The position numbers were made by a program, and so were the translations under genes. From Geothrix sp. 21YS21S-2 (GTDB lineage: Bacteria > Acidobacteriota > Holophagae > Holophagales > Holophagaceae), in assembly GCF_030846775.1 (NCBI RefSeq), contig NZ_CP132910.1, forward strand, positions 4,653,001-4,717,000: a DNA stretch of 64,000 nucleotides, given 5' to 3'. The notes below the pieces were generated by a model. That model made no database searches, was not told where the DNA came from, and saw only the letters and a list, made by a program, of their open reading frames with translations. Below, piece after piece: positions 5,781 through 59,687 of the stretch (its first letter is position 1; every line of letters starts with the position of its first letter).

Positions 5781-6157
5781 TCCTGGGGATGGGCACCGAC
5801 ATCTGCCCTGCCGCCCGGTGGGCCCACCTCCTGGACCGCTTCGGGGAGAAGGCCCTCCGGCGGGTCCTCTGCCAGGAGGAGGCCGATTACCTCCTGGGGG
5901 GGAACCGCCAGCGGCTTCCGGAGCGGGCCGCCGGCAGGTGGGCCCTGCGGGAGGCCTTCGGCAAGGCCCTGGGGATCGGCCTGGACGGCTGGTCCTGGAA
6001 GCAGCTCAGGTTCCTGGACGGGAAGCTGTGGGCTGAGGGAGAATTGGCCCGGATGATCCAGGACAGGGGGGTGGGCCCCATGCACGGCAGCGTCACCCAT
6101 GACGGGGGAATCTCGTTCGCCGTGGTCATCCTCGAGAAGAAAGGTGACCGCGATTAA
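5777..6157 (+). CDS. acpS: Holo-[acyl-carrier-protein] synthase
   Basis: A 126-residue AcpS-type phosphopantetheinyl transferase. The Mg-binding motif is GMGTDIC (Asp8), followed by WALREAFGKALG with the conserved Glu/Lys (canonical WAaKEAfaKALGtG; here the first Lys is Arg). The C-terminal SVTHDGGISFAVVI matches the S-H-x-x-x-x-A-x-A strand. It loads the phosphopantetheine arm from CoA onto acyl carrier protein for fatty-acid synthesis. It overlaps the GNAT gene by four bases. A second, Sfp-type enzyme at 54415-54963 probably serves the peptide synthetase there, leaving this one for ACP. Confidence 0.93.
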   Translation: MILGMGTDICPAARWAHLLDRFGEKALRRVLCQEEADYLLGGNRQRLPERAAGRWALREAFGKALGIGLDGWSWKQLRFLDGKLWAEGELARMIQDRGVGPMHGSVTHDGGISFAVVILEKKGDRD

Positions 6158-49681: not shown

Positions 49682-50365
49682 ATGTCCGCCCCCCGTACCG
49701 ATGCCACCCGCAGCGCCATCCTGAAGGCCGCCATGGCGGAATTCGCCCGGGAAGGGGAGGCCGGGGCCCGCACCGAGGCCATCGCCAAGGCCGCCGGCTT
49801 GAACAAGGCCTTGATCCACTATTATTTTGGAACCAAGGAAGGACTCTACGGCGCCGTGCTGGACGAGGTCTTCACCGGGCTGGTGGAGAGCTTCCTCAGG
49901 AACCTCCAGGGGCCGGGGACCCCGGGGGAGCGGCTGCTGCGGCACTTCCTGGCCCACTTCGACCACCTGGCTTCGGCGGGGGCCTTCACGCGGCTCCTGG
50001 GGCACGAGATGATGCGGGCCCGGTCGGGCCAGGCCACCCGGATCTCGCGCATCGTCGACATCGCCTTCCGGCCCCTGCACGCCGCCCTGGCCGCGGTGCT
50101 GGACGAGGGCGCCCGCAGCGGCGAGCTGCGGCCCCTGGACCCGGAGCCCGTCCTCGTCTCCCTCACGGGGGCGAACACGTTCTACTTCATTTCCGCGCCC
50201 ATCTACCGGGAGATCACCGGGGAGGACCCGCGGGACCCGGCGCGGCTGGCCCGGCAGCGGGAAGCGCTGCTGGACTTCGCCGCGAGCATCCTCTTCTCCG
50301 AACCCTCCCAGGGCCGCCTCGCGGCCGCCCGGATCCTGTCCGAACCTCGAGGTGAACAGCCGTGA
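49682..50365 (+). CDS. TetR-family transcriptional regulator (CecR/YbiH-like)
   Basis: A 227-residue repressor. The helix-turn-helix lies at about residues 27-48 (RTEAIAKAAGLNKALIHYYFGTK), followed by the family-typical LYGAVLDEVF. The ligand-binding domain resembles YbiH/CecR (DUF1956-like C-terminus). Palindromic and direct repeats immediately upstream suggest autoregulation, and it heads an operon with GTGA/ATGA overlaps through the HlyD, ATPase and permease genes. E. coli CecR likewise controls ybhGFSR. The inducer is unknown. Confidence 0.88.
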   Translation: MSAPRTDATRSAILKAAMAEFAREGEAGARTEAIAKAAGLNKALIHYYFGTKEGLYGAVLDEVFTGLVESFLRNLQGPGTPGERLLRHFLAHFDHLASAGAFTRLLGHEMMRARSGQATRISRIVDIAFRPLHAALAAVLDEGARSGELRPLDPEPVLVSLTGANTFYFISAPIYREITGEDPRDPARLARQREALLDFAASILFSEPSQGRLAAARILSEPRGEQP

Positions 50366-51384
50366 ATCCCCGCTACCGCATCTTCGCGCTCCTGGGAGCG
50401 CTCCTCCTGGTGGCCCTGGGCTACTTCTACGCCACCACCGACCACTCCCCGGACCTGGCGCTCATGGGCACCGTGGACGCCAACCAGGTGGTGGTCAGCG
50501 CCCAGATCCTGGGCCGCATCGAGAAGCTGGCCGTCACCGAGGGCCAGGACGTCAAGGCCGGCGACCTCGTCGCCCTCCTCGACCCGGGCGAGCTGGCAGC
50601 GGCCAAGGGCGCCTCCGAGGCCCAGTACGGCGCCATGAAGGCCACGGCCGAGAGCACCCGGGGGGATACGGACCAGGCTGTGGCCAGCGCCCGCGCCTCG
50701 CGCAGCGCCGCCGCCGCCAGCCTCGCCGAGGCTGCGGCCAACCGCGAGAACCAGGAGAACCTGACCCGGCGCACCGTGGCCCTGGCCGGCCAGGGGATCC
50801 TCAGCGCGCAGGACCGGGACTCGGCCGTGCAGGCCCTCAAGGCCGCCCTGGCCCGGGAGCATGCGGCCCGCGAACAGGCCGCGGCCGCCGAGGCCGCCCT
50901 CGGGGCCGCCCAGGCCCGCACCCGCCAGGCGGTGGCGGCCGCGGAGAACGCGGCCTCCGCCCGTGCCCAGGATTCCCTGGCCGGGGCGCGCCTGGGCTAC
51001 ACCCGCATCGTGGCCCCCGTGTCCGGGAAGGTGGGGATCTGGGCGGCCCGGCAGGGCGAAGTGGTCGCCGCGGGCGCGCCCATCGTGACCATCGTGGACC
51101 TGGGTCAGACCTGGGTCTACGCGGCCGTGGCCGAGACCGAGGCCGACGCCGTGCAGCTGGGGGACGCCCTGAAGGTGCGCATGCCGGGCGGGGCCCTGGT
51201 GCAGGGGACCGTGCTCCTGAAGGCCGCCGAGGGCGACTTCGCCACCCAGCGGGACGTGAGCCGGCGCAAGCGCGACATCAAGACCATCCGCATCAAGCTC
51301 CTCATTCCCAACCCCGGGGAGCGCTACGTGCCCGGCATGACCGCCGAGGTGCTGGTTCCCAAGGCCAGGCTGGTGCGCCGGTGA
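50362..51384 (+). CDS. HlyD/YbhG-like periplasmic adaptor (membrane fusion) protein
   Basis: A 340-residue adaptor starting at a GTG inside the tetR stop. One N-terminal transmembrane helix (about 7-24) is followed by a split biotinyl-lipoyl domain (GTVDANQVVVSAQILGRI and APVSGKVGIWAARQGEVVAAGAPI). Between the halves is an Ala-rich coiled-coil hairpin (about 75-205), and a beta-barrel domain (TWVYAAVAETEADAVQLGD) completes the protein. It links the inner-membrane exporter encoded next to an outer-membrane channel not encoded here. The hairpin is almost pure Ala/Glu/Arg, consistent with TolC-type docking. Confidence 0.9.
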   Translation: MNPRYRIFALLGALLLVALGYFYATTDHSPDLALMGTVDANQVVVSAQILGRIEKLAVTEGQDVKAGDLVALLDPGELAAAKGASEAQYGAMKATAESTRGDTDQAVASARASRSAAAASLAEAAANRENQENLTRRTVALAGQGILSAQDRDSAVQALKAALAREHAAREQAAAAEAALGAAQARTRQAVAAAENAASARAQDSLAGARLGYTRIVAPVSGKVGIWAARQGEVVAAGAPIVTIVDLGQTWVYAAVAETEADAVQLGDALKVRMPGGALVQGTVLLKAAEGDFATQRDVSRRKRDIKTIRIKLLIPNPGERYVPGMTAEVLVPKARLVRR

Positions 51385-52406
51385 AGCCGAATCCCGACAA
51401 GGACCTGTCCGGGGCGGCCATCCGGGTGGAGAACGTCGTCAAGCGCTTCGGCGACTTCGAGGCCGTCAGGGGCATCAGCCTGGACGTGCGCCCCGGCGAG
51501 ACCTTCGGGCTCCTGGGCCCCAACGGGGCCGGGAAGAGCACCCTCATCCGCATGATGACGACCCTCATCCCCATCACCTCGGGCCGCGCCTGGATCGAGG
51601 GCCACGACGTGGCCGGGGAGGCCGACGCCGCGCGGCACTGCATGGGCGTCATCCCCCAGGCCCTCACCAGCGACATCAACCTGACCGTGGAGGAGAACCT
51701 CTCCATCTACGCCAAGCTCTACAACGTGCCCCGGGCCGAGCGGCGCGCCAACATCGAGGAGCTCCTGGAGGCGGTGGACCTGGTGAAGTGGCGGGACGCC
51801 GAGACCAAGACGCTTTCCGGAGGCATGCGCCGGCGCCTGGAGATCGCCCGCGGCCTGGTGCACAACCCCCGCATCTTCTTCCTCGACGAGCCCACCACCG
51901 GCCTCGACCCCGTGTCCCGGGTGGCGGTGTGGGAGATGCTCAACAAGCTCAAGGCCCGCAAGCAGCTCACCATCCTCATCACCACCCACTACATGGACGA
52001 GGCGGACCGCCTCTGCGACCGCATCGCCATCGTGGACCACGGAAGGCTCGTGGCCCTGGACACGCCGGCGAAGCTCAAGCAGAGCGTGCCCGGGAACAAC
52101 GTGATCGAGGCCCAGTTCCAGGAGCCGCCGGAGGACTGGGAGGCCCGGCTGGGCGCCCTCGGGGAGGTCACCAGCGTCCAGGCCGAGGGCGCCGGGATGT
52201 TCCGGGTGCTCACCACCAACGGCTCCCGCACCACCACCGAACTGGTGGAGCTGGCCGTGCGCAACGGCATCGCCATCCGCACCCTCACGGTGCAGAACAC
52301 CACCCTGGACGACGTCTTCGTGCACTACACGGGCCGCCAGCTGCGGGACACCCAGGTCAAGACCTACACGGCCTTCCTGCCGCCCAGGCCGGGGATGCAG
52401 CCATGA
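51381..52406 (+). CDS. ABC-2-type exporter ATPase (YbhF-like)
   Basis: A 341-residue ATPase starting at a GTG overlapping the adaptor stop. It carries Walker A GPNGAGKST (about residues 50-58), signature LSGGMRRRLEIARGL, Walker B IFFLDEPTTGLD and switch His in TTHYMDEADRL. The C-terminal extension (about 245-341) has the DUF4162-like fold seen in drug and polyketide exporters. It is a single NBD, whereas E. coli YbhF is a tandem of two. It powers the permease encoded downstream. Confidence 0.92.
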   Translation: MKPNPDKDLSGAAIRVENVVKRFGDFEAVRGISLDVRPGETFGLLGPNGAGKSTLIRMMTTLIPITSGRAWIEGHDVAGEADAARHCMGVIPQALTSDINLTVEENLSIYAKLYNVPRAERRANIEELLEAVDLVKWRDAETKTLSGGMRRRLEIARGLVHNPRIFFLDEPTTGLDPVSRVAVWEMLNKLKARKQLTILITTHYMDEADRLCDRIAIVDHGRLVALDTPAKLKQSVPGNNVIEAQFQEPPEDWEARLGALGEVTSVQAEGAGMFRVLTTNGSRTTTELVELAVRNGIAIRTLTVQNTTLDDVFVHYTGRQLRDTQVKTYTAFLPPRPGMQP

Positions 52407-53515
52407 CGCGCCTGCTCGCAATCGTCGAACGGGAGCTGCGCAAGTTCTTCCGCTCCCCCTCGCTCATGCTCACCGCCATGGTGTTCCCCCTCATCCAGCT
52501 GGTGATCCTCGGCAACGCCTTCGGCGGCAAGATCACCGACGCCCGGGTGGGCGTGGTGGACTACGACGGCGGCCCCCAGGCCCTGCGGGTCCACGAGGCC
52601 TTCGATTCCGTGGCCGCCAACATCCGCACCTTCCGCACCATCCCCTACGACAGCGACAAGCGGGCCCAGGAGGACGTGCGCTCCGGGCGCCTGGACGCGG
52701 CCGTGGTCATCCCCCCGCAGTACTCGCGCAGGGTGCTCAACGGGGAGAACCCCGCCATCGGGTTCGTGGTGGACAACTCAGACCAGTTCCTCAGCGGGAG
52801 CCTCACCGCGGAGATGCAGGCCCTGACCGAATCGCTGAACCGTCCCAGGGTGGACCAGCGGGTGGTGAACTCCGTGGCGCTTCGCATCGTGGAGCTGTAT
52901 CCCTTCGTCGAGTACATGAAATACCTGCTCCCGGGCTCGATCACCCTGGCCATGTTCGTCTCCGTCATGATCGGCGGCGGCATGCTCTACATCGACGACA
53001 AGGCCCGGGGCGTGCACGAGGGCTTCCTGGTCACGCCGATCACCAAGCTGGAACTGGTCCTGGGCCTGGTGGCCTCGGGGGCGATCAAGGCGATCCTGGC
53101 GGGGTTCGTGCTGACCATCCTGGGCAGCCTCATCGCGGGGATGGACGTCATCTTCCACCCCGCGCTCCTGCTGCAGCTGCTGCTGATGATCGTGGCGACG
53201 TCCTTCGCCTTCAACGCCCTGATGTTCCTCCTGATGGTGCGGGTGGAGGACCCCCTGGTGCCCCGGGCGATGTTCGGCATCCTGAACACGCTCCTCTACT
53301 TCCCCAGCGGCGCCATCTACCCCATCGCGGCCTTCCCCGCCTGGCTGCGGGCCATCGCCAGGGTGGATCCCTTCACCTACGCGGTGCACGGGTTCAAGGC
53401 CGTGCTCCTGAAGGACGCGGGCTTCGCGGCGCTGGCGCCGGACCTGGCCTACCTGGGCCTCATCGGAACGCTGGCGCTGGTGCTCGCGACCCGGCTCTTC
53501 AAGCGGACCCTCTAG
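52403..53515 (+). CDS. ABC-2-type permease (YbhS/YbhR-like)
   Basis: A 370-residue permease with one N-terminal helix (about 22-42), a large extracytoplasmic domain (about 45-170, GGKITDARVGVVDYDGG), and five C-terminal membrane segments with GARGVHEGFLVTPI-like ARGVHEGFLVTPITK, the cytosolic coupling motif. It starts in the ATPase stop (ATGA). Only one permease is present, so it probably homodimerises, unlike the E. coli YbhS/YbhR pair. The transported compound is unknown. Confidence 0.9.
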   Translation: MTRLLAIVERELRKFFRSPSLMLTAMVFPLIQLVILGNAFGGKITDARVGVVDYDGGPQALRVHEAFDSVAANIRTFRTIPYDSDKRAQEDVRSGRLDAAVVIPPQYSRRVLNGENPAIGFVVDNSDQFLSGSLTAEMQALTESLNRPRVDQRVVNSVALRIVELYPFVEYMKYLLPGSITLAMFVSVMIGGGMLYIDDKARGVHEGFLVTPITKLELVLGLVASGAIKAILAGFVLTILGSLIAGMDVIFHPALLLQLLLMIVATSFAFNALMFLLMVRVEDPLVPRAMFGILNTLLYFPSGAIYPIAAFPAWLRAIARVDPFTYAVHGFKAVLLKDAGFAALAPDLAYLGLIGTLALVLATRLFKRTL

Positions 53516-54414: not shown

Positions 54415-54963
54415 TCACTCTCCCCACGCGAGGGCAAGGATCAGCCCTTCCGCCAGCCCCCCTCCGTCCGACACGTGCACGTGCCAGCCCTCCGGCGGGG
54501 ATGGGCACCCCAGGACGCGGGACGGCCTGAGGCCCTCCCCGTCGGGCTCCAGCTCCACCGCCCCGGGATCCAGGGAGAGGCCCATGCCCAGGGCCTTCAG
54601 GAGCGCCTCCCGGCAGGCCCACACCTGGAAGAGCCGCCGGCGCCTGGACGCCTCGGGCACGCTTTCCAGCCAGGCCCGCTCCCCGGGGGACGCGAGATCC
54701 AGGAGGCCCCGGGTGGGGATCCCGGAGCGGGGATCCACCAGGTCCACCCCCACCCGCCCCGTGAGCCGCAGGGCCACGGCGGCCACCGCGCCGCAGCGGC
54801 CGAGGCTGACCTGCACCGGGACCCCGCCGGCCTCGGCCCGGGGCCGGCCGTGGGCGTCGTGGCCGGAGAAGGCCGCGGGGACGGCCAGACCCAGCTCCCG
54901 GGCGAGCCCGGGCAGGGCGGCGGCCTCGGAAAAGGCGGGGGTGCACGCGAAGGCGGGCCTCAC
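54415..54963 (-). CDS. Sfp-type 4'-phosphopantetheinyl transferase
   Basis: A 182-residue protein starting at a GTG inside the synthetase stop (GTGA). The Mg-binding motif GVDLVDP (about residue 75) and WACREALLKALG (about 118-129; canonical W..KEA..K) identify the family. The stretch PVQVSLGRCGAVAAVAL corresponds to the CoA-contact S-H-s region, in which His is replaced by Gly. At 182 residues it is shorter than Sfp (about 224). Overlap with the Pls-like gene makes it the probable activator of that enzyme's carrier domain. Confidence 0.86.
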   Translation of the reverse strand: MRPAFACTPAFSEAAALPGLARELGLAVPAAFSGHDAHGRPRAEAGGVPVQVSLGRCGAVAAVALRLTGRVGVDLVDPRSGIPTRGLLDLASPGERAWLESVPEASRRRRLFQVWACREALLKALGMGLSLDPGAVELEPDGEGLRPSRVLGCPSPPEGWHVHVSDGGGLAEGLILALAWGE

Positions 54964-57900
54964 CCGACCCTCCGCGCGGGGCTGCCGTGCCAGCGGCTGC
55001 CCGCGGGCAGGACCTCGCCCTTCATCAGAAGGGAGAGATCCCCCAGGTGCGAGCCGGGCTCCATGCGGGTGCCGTAGAGGACCACGGCGTCGGTGCCCAC
55101 GGAACAGCCCGCGCCCAGGTCGATGGTGGACATCTTCATGACCCGGTCCTCGAAGAGGTGGGTCTGGATGGTGCAGTCCGGGCCCAGGCAGGCGCCGTCG
55201 CCGATGCGCACCAGGTCGAACTCCGTCATCCAGATGCTCTCCATGTGCACGCCCCGGCCGATGCGGGCGCCCAGGAGGCGGAAATAGAGGGGCAGAAGGG
55301 CGGTGCCCTGGCAGAGGTTCAGCAGCCAGGAGGCGGCCAGGTTCTCGTGGAGCGCCGACACCAGCTCGGTGCGCCACACGAAGCCGCACCAGAGGGGTTT
55401 CTCGCAGGGGCGGTAGCGGCCGATGAGGAGCCATTTCATGCCCACGGCGAACGCGCACGCCGCCACGCCCGCGGCGAAGTACAGGAACGGGAAGAGGAGG
55501 ATCGCGGCCGCGATGCCGAAGCCCTCCTCCAGGAGGGTCAGCGTGGTGAGCATCAGGCAGGTGAGGAGGGCATAGGCCATGGCGGGCAGCGTCACCCGGA
55601 AGAACTCGATGCAGAGGCGCAGGGCCACCAGCCTCCGGCCGGGGGTGAAGGTCCGGTCGTCGCCGAACCCCTCGGCGTGGTGGCGCCTGGGGAGGTAGAT
55701 GGCGGGGGAGCCCAGCCAGGAGGCGTCGACCCGCGCGGCCTCGGCGGGGTCCAGGGGCGGAACGGACAGGACGCCCACCAGGGCGAGGTCGCCCAGCGCC
55801 GTGCCCCCGGGCACGGCGGAACTGTTGCCCACGAAGGCGCGCCGGCCCACCCGGGTCGGCGCCAGGGTGACGCGGCCCAGGTCGTAGCGGGGCGTGCCCA
55901 GGGAGGCGGCGTCGGCGATGAAGGTCTCCTCCCCGATGTCCAGGAGGTCCGGCGTGGCCGCGCCCGCGGTGGAGATCTCGGCGCGCCGGCCGATCCTCGC
56001 GCCCAGGGCCCGGAACCAGGGGTTCAGGTAGAGGGTGGCGTAGAGGGGTCCCAGCAGGTCCAGGGAGACTTCCATCAGCTGGTCGACGAACCACTTCCGG
56101 AGGTAGTAGGCGGAGGTGAGGTCGTAGGTGCCGGCCCGCACCCTGCCGATGACCAGGCGCTTGACGCCGATGATGATCAGGGCCAGGAGCAGCACGTAGG
56201 AGATGGCCGCCAGGGGGACCGCCCACAGGTAGCCGAAGTACCCGGGGATGTCGACCCACAGCTCGTTCAGGAGCATCATGCCGGGAAGGATGGAGCACAG
56301 GAAGACCACCGGCACCATGAAGGCCGCCAGGCCCTGGGCCACCGCCATGGCCAGGATGCGGGGGCGCCCCGGCCGGGACGGGGCCAGGCCGGCGCGGTCG
56401 GGCCCCGGCAGGGGCAGGGCGGGGGAGCCCACCCAGTGCCGGTCGGCGGGGATGCGGCCGCCTTCGGGGAGCATGCTCAGGTCGCCCAGCTCCGAGCCGT
56501 CCTCCATGACCGTGCCCGGGGCCAGCACGGCCCGGGCGCCCACGCAGCAGCGGGAGCCGACCTTGATGGGGCCCAGGCGCAGGGCGCCGTCCTCGATGAC
56601 GTAGGCTTCCAGCCGGGCCTCCACGCCGATGCAGGTGTCCGAGCCCACCTCGAGGAGGTCGAAGCCCCGGACGCAGTCCGTGGCGAAGTGGGTGTGCCGG
56701 CCCACCCGGGCCCCCATGAGGCGCAGGTAGGCGCGCATCCACGGCGTGCCCACCAGGTAGCCCGTGGGGGTCGCGGCCTGGATGCGGGTCGCCAGCCACC
56801 AGCGCAGGTGGTAGGCGCCCCAGAGCGGGTGGGTTCCCGCCCGCACCCGGCCCAGGAGGAGCCACTTGGCGGCGATGGACAGGAGGAACATGGCGGGGTT
56901 CAGGAGCAGGATGACTCCGGTGGCCGCGGCCAGGGCCGGGCCCCGGTCGTGGTCGTGGTCGATGAGCCAGCTGTAGGTGAGGTAGGGAGCCAGCCACTGG
57001 AGTCCGAAGTAGCCCAGGAGGGGGAAGAGCCCGGCGGCCTGGGCCCCCTGGCAGAGCCACCTTGCGAAGCGGGGCCTCGGGGCGGTCACGGCCGCCGGCG
57101 CCTGGGGTCCGGGGCTGCGGGCGTCCATTTCCCTCGCCAGGAGGCGCACCGTGGGGAAGGCGTACACGTCGGGCACGGAGAGCCCCAGGAAGTCGCCGGC
57201 CCTGCGCAGCTCGGAGACCATGACGGCCGCCAGCAGGGAGTGGCCCCCCAGGTCCGTGAAGAAGTCCTGGTCCAGGCCCACCGCGTCCAGCTGGAAGAGC
57301 CGGCCCCAGGCTTCGGCCAGGGCCCGCTCCCGGCTCGAGCCGGGGGCCTCCGGTGCCCGGGCGGCGGCGGCCCGGGGCGGGGGCGCCGGCAGGGCCTTGC
57401 GGTCGAGCTTGCCGCTGGGCAGGGTGGGCAGGGCCTCCAGGGCGACGATGCGGGCCGGGATCATGTAGGGGGGGAGGGTCCTGCGCAGGGCGGCCCGGAG
57501 CCCGTCCTCGTCGGCCGGGCCCGGGACCACGTAGCCCACGAGCTGGTCGGGCCCGTCCCCGCCCAGCACCGCCGCGGCCGCCGCCAGCACGCCGGGCGCG
57601 GCGCGCAGGGCGGCCTCGATCTCGCCCAGCTCAACCCGGAAGCCGCGGAGCTTGACCTGGTCGTCGAAGCGCCCCAGGAACACCAGGTCGCCGTTGGCGT
57701 CCAGGCGCACCCTGTCGCCGGTGCGGTAGAGGCGCTCCGTGCCGGGGCCGTCCGCATAGGGGTTGGGCGGGAAGCGCTCCGCGGTGAGGTCCGGCAGGCC
57801 CAGGTAGCCGATGGCCAGGCCGATGCCCGAGAGGCACAGCTCCCCTTCGTCCGCGGGGCCCAGCTCCCCGTCCAGGACGTAGGTCCGCATGTTGGGGATG

Positions 57901-58871
57901 GCCTTGCCGATGGTGACGGGCCGGTCCGGGGACAGATCGGTCCAGGTGGCGATGACGCAGGCCTCCGTGGGTCCGTAGGTGTTCACCATGCGCCGCGAGG
58001 TCGCCCAGCGCCGCACCAGGTCCCGGGGGCAGGCCTCGCCGCCCAGGATGAGGAGCCGCAGGGAAGGCACATCCTCGTCGAAGGTGCCCAGGAGGGTGGG
58101 GACGGTGGAGACCACCGTGACGCCCCGCTCCCTCAGCCAGGAGGGAAGGGCGGGGCCGCTCTTGACCACCGCGGCGCCCGCGGCCACCAGGGCCGCGCCC
58201 GCGTGCCAGGCCAGCCAGACCTCCTCCACCGAGGCGTCGAAGGCCAGGGAGAAGCCCTGGAAGACCCGGTCCTCGGCGGTCACCCCGAAGATCCGGCCTT
58301 CGGCGCGCACCAGGTTGCACACGGCGCGGTGCGCCACGGCCACACCCTTGGGGCGGCCCGTGGACCCGCTGGTGAAGATGGCGTAGCAGGGATCGGAGGG
58401 CCGCGCCCTCCGGGGGGGCCGGGTGGAGGGCAGCGCCGCCAGGGCCCCGGCCTCCTCCTCCAGGAGGACCGGCGTCCAGGGCCCTTCGGCGATCTGGGCG
58501 GCGGGGCCCATGGAGGTCACCAGGAGGCGGGCCCCGGAATCCAGGAGGATGGCCCGCACGCGGTCGGGGGGATAGTCCGGGTCCAGGGGCACGTAGGCCG
58601 CCCCGGCCTTGAGAACGGCCAGCAGGGCGGTGAGGGCCTCGGCTCCCCGGGGCAGGAGGAGGGCCACGTAGGTCCCGGGCCCCGCCCCCCGCTCCATGAG
58701 GAGGCGGGCGAGGCGGTTGGCCCGGGCGTCCAGCTCCCGGTAGGAGAGGCTGCGGCCCTCGAACTCCACGGCCGTGCGATCCCCCCACCGGTCCGCGGTG
58801 GCTTCGAAGAGTTCCGGGAGCAGCTCGTCCCTCACGAGATCCGGGGCGGCTGGCATCTGGGGGGTTGGCAC
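54960..58871 (-). CDS. Pls/PosA-family non-ribosomal peptide synthetase (poly-amino-acid synthetase-like)
   Basis: A 1303-residue membrane-bound NRPS with GTG start (AGGTCC upstream; ATG at 58856 possible). The adenylation domain (15-500) has YAIFTSGSTGRPKG (A3), NTYGPTE (A5), YRTGD (A7) and PSGKLDRKAL (A10 Lys488). The carrier domain (515-585) has Ser545 in LGGHSLL. Then come three tandem modules of about 150-160 residues, each preceded by two membrane helices (helices near 613-632/645-673, 840-865/878-905, 1088-1110/1117-1148) and each opening with GR(V/Y)R(A/P). This is the layout of epsilon-poly-L-lysine synthetase (Pls, 1319 residues in Streptomyces), where the three modules join monomers iteratively. 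By-eye pocket residues are D212, A213, E216, S255, I275, G277, T298, V306, I307, K488; the acidic E216 would suit a basic amino acid. The substrate is unproven. Confidence 0.9.
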   Translation of the reverse strand: MPTPQMPAAPDLVRDELLPELFEATADRWGDRTAVEFEGRSLSYRELDARANRLARLLMERGAGPGTYVALLLPRGAEALTALLAVLKAGAAYVPLDPDYPPDRVRAILLDSGARLLVTSMGPAAQIAEGPWTPVLLEEEAGALAALPSTRPPRRARPSDPCYAIFTSGSTGRPKGVAVAHRAVCNLVRAEGRIFGVTAEDRVFQGFSLAFDASVEEVWLAWHAGAALVAAGAAVVKSGPALPSWLRERGVTVVSTVPTLLGTFDEDVPSLRLLILGGEACPRDLVRRWATSRRMVNTYGPTEACVIATWTDLSPDRPVTIGKAIPNMRTYVLDGELGPADEGELCLSGIGLAIGYLGLPDLTAERFPPNPYADGPGTERLYRTGDRVRLDANGDLVFLGRFDDQVKLRGFRVELGEIEAALRAAPGVLAAAAAVLGGDGPDQLVGYVVPGPADEDGLRAALRRTLPPYMIPARIVALEALPTLPSGKLDRKALPAPPPRAAAARAPEAPGSSRERALAEAWGRLFQLDAVGLDQDFFTDLGGHSLLAAVMVSELRRAGDFLGLSVPDVYAFPTVRLLAREMDARSPGPQAPAAVTAPRPRFARWLCQGAQAAGLFPLLGYFGLQWLAPYLTYSWLIDHDHDRGPALAAATGVILLLNPAMFLLSIAAKWLLLGRVRAGTHPLWGAYHLRWWLATRIQAATPTGYLVGTPWMRAYLRLMGARVGRHTHFATDCVRGFDLLEVGSDTCIGVEARLEAYVIEDGALRLGPIKVGSRCCVGARAVLAPGTVMEDGSELGDLSMLPEGGRIPADRHWVGSPALPLPGPDRAGLAPSRPGRPRILAMAVAQGLAAFMVPVVFLCSILPGMMLLNELWVDIPGYFGYLWAVPLAAISYVLLLALIIIGVKRLVIGRVRAGTYDLTSAYYLRKWFVDQLMEVSLDLLGPLYATLYLNPWFRALGARIGRRAEISTAGAATPDLLDIGEETFIADAASLGTPRYDLGRVTLAPTRVGRRAFVGNSSAVPGGTALGDLALVGVLSVPPLDPAEAARVDASWLGSPAIYLPRRHHAEGFGDDRTFTPGRRLVALRLCIEFFRVTLPAMAYALLTCLMLTTLTLLEEGFGIAAAILLFPFLYFAAGVAACAFAVGMKWLLIGRYRPCEKPLWCGFVWRTELVSALHENLAASWLLNLCQGTALLPLYFRLLGARIGRGVHMESIWMTEFDLVRIGDGACLGPDCTIQTHLFEDRVMKMSTIDLGAGCSVGTDAVVLYGTRMEPGSHLGDLSLLMKGEVLPAGSRWHGSPARRVG

Positions 58872-58934: not shown

Positions 58935-59687
58935 CTAGGGCATCAACATGCCGCCGTTCACGCTGAGCACCTGGCCGGTCATGTACTCCGCCTCGTCGGA
59001 AGCCAGGAAGGAGACGGCGTTCGCGATGTCGGCGGGGGTGCCCATGCGGCCCAGGGGGATCTGGCGGTTGAACTCGGCCTTCACGTCCTCGGGGAGCTTG
59101 TCGGTCATGGCGGTGGCGATGTAGCCGGGGGCCACGGCGTTGCAGGTGATGTTGCGGCTCGCGAACTCCCGGGCCACGGTCTTGGTGAGGCCGATCAGGC
59201 CCGCCTTGGAGGCCACGTAGTTGCTCTGGCCGGCGTTGCCCATCTGGCCCACCACGGAGACGATGTTGATGATCCGGCCCCAGCGCTGCTTCATCATCGC
59301 CTTGGCCACGGCCTGGGTGGCCAGCCAGGAGCCCTTGAGGTTGATGTCGAGCACCAGCTCGAACTCCTCCTCCTTCATCTGGATCATCAGCTTGTCCTTG
59401 GTGATGCCGGCGTTGTTCACCAGGATGTGGAGGGCGCCGTGGCGCTCGAGGACGGTGGCGACGGCGGCGCGGATGCTCTCCCCGTCCCGCATGTCCAGGA
59501 GGACGTAGTCGGCCTGGCCGCCCTGGGCCTGGATGCCGGCGACGACCTGCTTGAGGTCCTCCTCGGTGGAGGGCAGGCTGGCGCACACGGCGAAGGCGCC
59601 CTGGCGGGCCAGATTCCGGGCGATGGTCTCGCCGATGCCCTGGCTGGCGCCGGTGATGAGGGCGATCTTGCCTTTGAGTTCGAACAT
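58935..59687 (-). CDS. fabG: 3-oxoacyl-[acyl-carrier-protein] reductase
   Basis: A 250-residue classical SDR. The cofactor loop is GASQGIGE (about residues 13-20), then NNAGITKDKLMIQM (FabG-typical), Ser in NIVSVVGQMGN, the catalytic Tyr-Lys in SNYVASKAGLIGLTK, and IATAMTDKLP with the C-terminal GGMLM. It reduces 3-oxoacyl-ACP with NADPH. CGGAG precedes the ATG. It lies 63 nt upstream of the Pls-like gene on the same strand. No other fab gene is near, so it may serve general fatty-acid synthesis or supply the cluster. Confidence 0.92.
   Translation of the reverse strand: MFELKGKIALITGASQGIGETIARNLARQGAFAVCASLPSTEEDLKQVVAGIQAQGGQADYVLLDMRDGESIRAAVATVLERHGALHILVNNAGITKDKLMIQMKEEEFELVLDINLKGSWLATQAVAKAMMKQRWGRIINIVSVVGQMGNAGQSNYVASKAGLIGLTKTVAREFASRNITCNAVAPGYIATAMTDKLPEDVKAEFNRQIPLGRMGTPADIANAVSFLASDEAEYMTGQVLSVNGGMLMP

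Follow-up and report, generated by a model that had tools for sequence, protein, structure and literature searches.

The window analysed here, a 64,000-nucleotide stretch of the Geothrix sp. 21YS21S-2 genome, carries one long gene whose product resembles the homopolymer-forming synthetases Pls and PosA, and raises the question of whether the likeness is one of true family membership and, if so, which amino acid is joined, and how. The gene (pls; 54960..58871, minus strand) begins with GTG at 58871, ends with a stop at 54960 and specifies a protein of 1303 residues; a preliminary description had given this extent and length correctly, with the strand absent. Comparison with Pls/PosA family profiles, which that description had called for, gave 669 bits against TIGR02353 (Pls/PosA family non-ribosomal peptide synthetase, NCBIfam) over residues 611-1299 and profile positions 3-695 of 695, a score that excludes a chance match, the curated cut-off being 423.1 bits. 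The Pls-type architecture that had been proposed is thus backed by a curated equivalog-level model, as well as by structure prediction and alignment. The pls gene is an authentic, though unremarkable, representative of a known group of membrane enzymes, the Pls/PosA family, which link basic amino acids into chains with antimicrobial activity; NCBI assigns the family name automatically. The family is widespread in bacterial phyla, fungi and archaea, with members outside the actinobacteria already published (PMC10522769); a non-exhaustive literature search turned up no report of an enzyme of this type from Acidobacteria.

The N-terminal part of the synthetase comprises one adenylation (A) domain and one carrier (PCP) domain, as had been suggested from the sequence. 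TIGR01733 (amino-acid adenylation, NCBIfam) matches residues 43-432 with 418.9 bits, and Pfam reports AMP-binding, AMP-binding_C, PP-binding (PF00550, residues 517-580) and a hexapeptide repeat (PF00132, residues 769-797). The carrier domain (residues 515-582; 57126..57329, minus strand) matches PCP structures with Z about 14 in VIA-align and contains the phosphopantetheine serine, Ser545 (codon 57237-57239, minus strand), which is kept in 90 of the 91 homologues having a residue at that position in the alignment.

The identity of the monomer was approached through the A domain (residues 16-494; 57390..58826, minus strand), whose ten-residue code was read from an alignment of 93 sequences calibrated on Acinetobacter baumannii PosA, the delta-poly-L-ornithine synthetase, and on 7WEW, the solved A domain of Streptomyces Pls. 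The calibration returned DMEHNGTVSK for the A. baumannii locus, identical to the published PosA code (PMC10522769). For the Geothrix enzyme the code is DAESIGTVIK (D212, A213, E216, S255, I275, G277, T298, V306, I307 and K488), with Ser255 at position 4 (GrsA 278), and it equals that of 7WEW (DAESIGTVVK) at nine of ten positions, valine being replaced by isoleucine at position 9. Two Streptomyces loci (L122 and L123) likewise have DAESIGTVVK, and L123 aligns with 7WEW end to end (E = 3.5e-293). Against this reading, in a pairwise search with the A domain alone 7WEW (320 bits) was no better a match than gramicidin and fuscachelin A domains (322 bits). Asp212 and Glu216, at code positions 1 and 3, correspond to Asp217 and Glu221 of PosA, both of which are essential, the glutamate serving the side-chain amine (PMC10522769) and the aspartate the alpha-amine; the acidic Glu216 to which the preliminary description had drawn attention thus occupies the PosA Glu221 position. 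Ala213 takes the place of PosA Met218, a chain-length position at which lysine-activating members have alanine (PMC10522769), so that the lysine code DAESIGTV(V/I)K, with alanine at position 2, is present. On the evidence of this pocket, L-lysine is the best-supported substrate, which narrows the earlier proposal of a basic amino acid. That the enzyme is a homopolymer synthetase of this family but uses another basic amino acid, namely ornithine, beta-lysine, Dab, Dap or arginine, appears rather unlikely: it is the code alone that points to lysine, codes being imperfect predictors, and PosA accepts several diamino acids (PMC10522769), but in this alignment the codes of the ornithine (DMEHNGTVSK), Dab-cluster (DFECLSAVTK), beta-lysine-like (DGESVSAVNK) and arginine-active (DSECYGGVTK) classes are plainly different.

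The next gene downstream of pls encodes an Sfp-type 4'-phosphopantetheinyl transferase (PPTase; 54415..54963, minus strand; PF01648), the GTG start of which lies in a 4-nt overlap (GTGA) with the pls stop codon. The product of this overlapping gene would prime Ser545, probably switching the synthetase on. In the Holophagaceae sister clade, the PPTase is fused to the synthetase in every member examined: in G033 the two form a single 1555-residue reading frame, a C-terminal PPTase fusion is likewise present in L041-L043, L057 and L060, and PPTase sequence likewise follows the synthetase in G245, G276, G284, G338, G374 and G412, in open frames of 1494-1677 residues (some species occur in both collections, with zero branch length, L043 being G033 and L057 being G276). 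This fusion clade has the same code as the Geothrix enzyme and 57-62% identity to it over the aligned synthetase, but its PPTase is appended at the C-terminus whereas that of Geothrix is a separate overlapping gene. Among the 82 loci with enough flank, the PPTase is fused or adjacent in 37 (5 fused, 32 adjacent on the same strand); the PPTase-adjacent loci span several phyla, with Sphingomonadales over-represented, and G001, of the same genus as the source genome, is without an adjacent PPTase. The overlapping or fused arrangement suggests a self-contained expression unit. By comparison, an M1 peptidase gene that neighbours a Streptomyces pls is missing here, the overlapping PPTase gene being found instead. 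The whole genome yields three PPTase matches, one of which lies elsewhere in the window (5789-6046, plus strand), in a 131-residue frame that is probably AcpS.

The C-terminal domain, of about 700 residues, consists of three repeats, each made up of two membrane helices and one hexapeptide-type lobe. An AlphaFold2 model of residues 505-1303, built with 56 aligned sequences (mean pLDDT 93.0, pTM 0.92), shows a small helical carrier domain followed by three pairs of long helices, with a beta-helix lobe after each pair. The first helix pair (residues 601-672; 56856..57071) leads into lobe 1, a hexapeptide beta-helix also recognised by Pfam (residues 673-834; 56370..56855), the second (residues 836-907; 56151..56366) into lobe 2 (residues 908-1077; 55641..56150), in which the alignment identifies conserved E965, D987 and N1016, and the third (residues 1079-1149; 55425..55637) into lobe 3 (residues 1150-1303; 54963..55424), with the aligned motif QTHLFEDR, all on the minus strand. 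The model agrees with what had been read from the sequence, namely three modules each preceded by two membrane helices and opening with GR(V/Y)R(A/P); the openings are GRVRA, GRVRA and GRYRP near residues 674, 910 and 1151, and the six long helices form three pairs. The three-lobed arrangement that structure prediction had been expected to reveal is seen, in agreement with the prediction for PosA (PMC10522769).

Among the matches listed, a Foldseek search of the PDB returned single lobes only, e.g. of hexapeptide acetyltransferases and gamma-carbonic anhydrases, with TM-scores by query length of at most 0.14, and the best VIA-align rows are carrier domains; none of the listed matches from either program covers the whole C-terminal domain, which does not imply that the fold is novel. 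The lobes do contain hexapeptide repeats and the left-handed beta-helix (LbH) fold, a likeness of fold and not of function. The preliminary description had regarded a reduction of the modules to mere hexapeptide-repeat acetyltransferases as telling against the assignment, but characterised PosA is likewise predicted to have hexapeptide beta-helix lobes in a three-lobed arrangement (PMC10522769), and the hexapeptide fold therefore does not refute membership of the family.

No canonical condensation domain was found in the genome, which leaves the C-terminal domain as the sole candidate seen for bond formation. Within it, a single histidine reaches a conservation of 97% or more: His1238 (codon 55158..55160, minus strand), in the lobe 3 motif QTHLFEDR, present in 106 of 106 homologues. 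It was first noticed in loci retrieved by a pattern containing QTHLFEDR, but it is also present in all 26 homologues of a re-check set retrieved without that motif, by profile or tblastn. Asp1242 and Arg1243, beside it, and E965, D987 and N1016 of lobe 2 are invariant or nearly so. In the seven members compared, lobes 1 and 2 have residues other than histidine at the positions matching His1238. From this pattern of conservation, His1238 is the likeliest general base and a candidate catalytic residue, in which case catalysis would be confined to one of the three pseudo-symmetric clefts. With just one invariant histidine to alter, a single mutant could test the bond-forming step, which is unsolved for the family.

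Stand-alone relatives of the C-terminal domain, having two TM helices and one hexapeptide lobe (246-290 residues), were also observed (L003 1351-2157, plus strand, corresponding to G000:C1:1928319-1929107; L002 1486-2226, minus strand, corresponding to G000:C1:3669032-3669760). In NCBIfam they match TIGR02353 best, though far under its cut-off; almost every genome of the family of the source organism has them, including those of 1.2 Mb, and they are scattered through other families. The histidine of these relatives aligns with His1238; in the HMMER alignment, however, the histidine of the single-lobe relative is beside a gap and a few residues off, a placement that does not establish exact equivalence of His1238 to the catalytic histidine of LacA-type acetyltransferases. 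A tentative proposal, which we regard as possible rather than probable, is that the polymerase arose when a stand-alone homotrimer of the 2TM-plus-lobe type was fused into a pseudo-trimer, the fusion having allowed two of the three sites to lose their histidine, with the single His1238 site condensing lysine at the membrane. Were this so, it would assign a catalytic residue to the Pls/PosA family and account for how the family arose.

Taken as a whole, the protein is likely a single-module, membrane-anchored Pls/PosA-family NRPS that loads L-lysine and releases epsilon-linked oligo- or poly-L-lysine via His1238 of lobe 3. The A domain would adenylate L-lysine and load the PCP, itself made holo by the PPTase of the overlapping gene, and the three-lobed domain would repeatedly condense the lysyl thioester with the epsilon-amine of a further lysine or of the chain being extended, with release of epsilon-linked oligo- or poly-L-lysine as the likely outcome. 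Such a product might serve in antimicrobial action, surface binding or competition. We consider it improbable that lysine is instead built into a short oligomer attached to the membrane or envelope, or transferred to another acceptor. The synthetase does belong to a Gram-negative clade apart from Streptomyces Pls, PosA products are only 7-12-mers (PMC10522769) and the C-terminal fold is a hexapeptide acyltransferase fold, but for the characterised members that PMC10522769 lists the product is a released homo-oligomer or polymer, and no acceptor-specific gene was found conserved beside pls. With this synthetase, predicted epsilon-polylysine chemistry reaches the Holophagaceae-type Acidobacteriota.

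The closest named contigs are Holophagaceae and Acidobacteria MAGs, with 59-62% identity in the C-terminal domain, in keeping with the acidobacterial origin put forward in the preliminary description. In a FastTree phylogeny of that domain, the synthetase forms a group with its congeners G002 and G001 (support 1.00), and a second Holophagaceae clade joins these (support 1.00). Neighbouring sequences are from Planctomycetota, Verrucomicrobiota, Bacteroidota, Elusimicrobia, Myxococcales and archaea, most of them with DAESIGTVIK; the Gram-negative clade with this identical code (Planctomycetota, Verrucomicrobiota, Bacteroidota and Elusimicrobia) supplies the nearest C-terminal domains, at 38-50% identity, but most of its members have no adjacent PPTase. 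Streptomyces albulus Pls (epsilon-poly-L-lysine synthetase) shares the A-PCP-six-TM three-lobe architecture, but grouping with it was not found in the C-terminal tree, in which Pls forms a very long branch of its own and support is low at several deep nodes. Given a Pls-like pocket outside the Streptomyces Pls lineage, the enzyme is better named a Pls/PosA-family synthetase predicted to use lysine than Pls, and polymer length and linkage cannot be transferred from Pls. As it stands apart from the industrial Streptomyces enzyme, the clade might furnish oligomers of different lengths.

With respect to genomic context, the synthetase is 87% identical to that of G002 and 72% identical to that of G001, with conserved synteny. 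Upstream of pls is a gene for FabG (3-oxoacyl-ACP reductase; 58935..59687, minus strand; TIGR01830), which pls adjoins in the source genome, G001 and G002; in G003 and G005 the start of pls is present there before the contigs end, and in G004, of the same genus, pls is absent from the fabG site. FabG and an M28 peptidase were set aside as pathway partners, both being kept in G004 without pls, and FabG is probably a mere neighbour. In a survey of 396 Acidobacteriota genomes (TIGR02353 at E <= 1e-60), a homologue was present in 17, patchily, 13 of them above the curated cut-off. Such patchiness, together with the absence in G004, might suggest a decayed or inactive gene; this we hold to be very improbable, in that the frame is full length, all code residues, Ser545 and His1238 are retained, and both identity and synteny are preserved in G002 and G001. 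Convergent with pls and kept in G002 are genes for a TetR regulator, an HlyD-type protein, an ABC ATPase and an ABC-2 permease (49682-53515 of the window, plus strand). These were considered as an exporter and set aside, as none of them was found within the 19.9 kb surrounding pls in G001.

The Acidobacteriota codes comprise, in addition to the lysine type of the Holophagaceae, the ornithine type DMEHNGTVSK (G106, the same as L128) and the beta-lysine-like DGESVSAVNK (G115, the same as L135). The code DSECYGGVTK, shared with a Bdellovibrionales enzyme whose activity with arginine is modest (PMC10522769), is found in G009, G019, G034, G269, G283, G284 and G312 (one copy reading DSECYGSVTK), in homologues under the curated cut-off. 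A deep Pls-like clade with this code (L009/L038, L010/L039, L011/L040 and L136-L140) scores 339-397 bits to TIGR02353, and automatic annotation may therefore miss it. Separately, a Pls/PosA homologue of Streptomyces sp. NBC_01527 (L124 8050-10636) has the code DFECLSAVTK, and genes for diaminobutyrate transaminase and aspartate kinase come immediately after it, an arrangement consistent with a poly-Dab synthetase.
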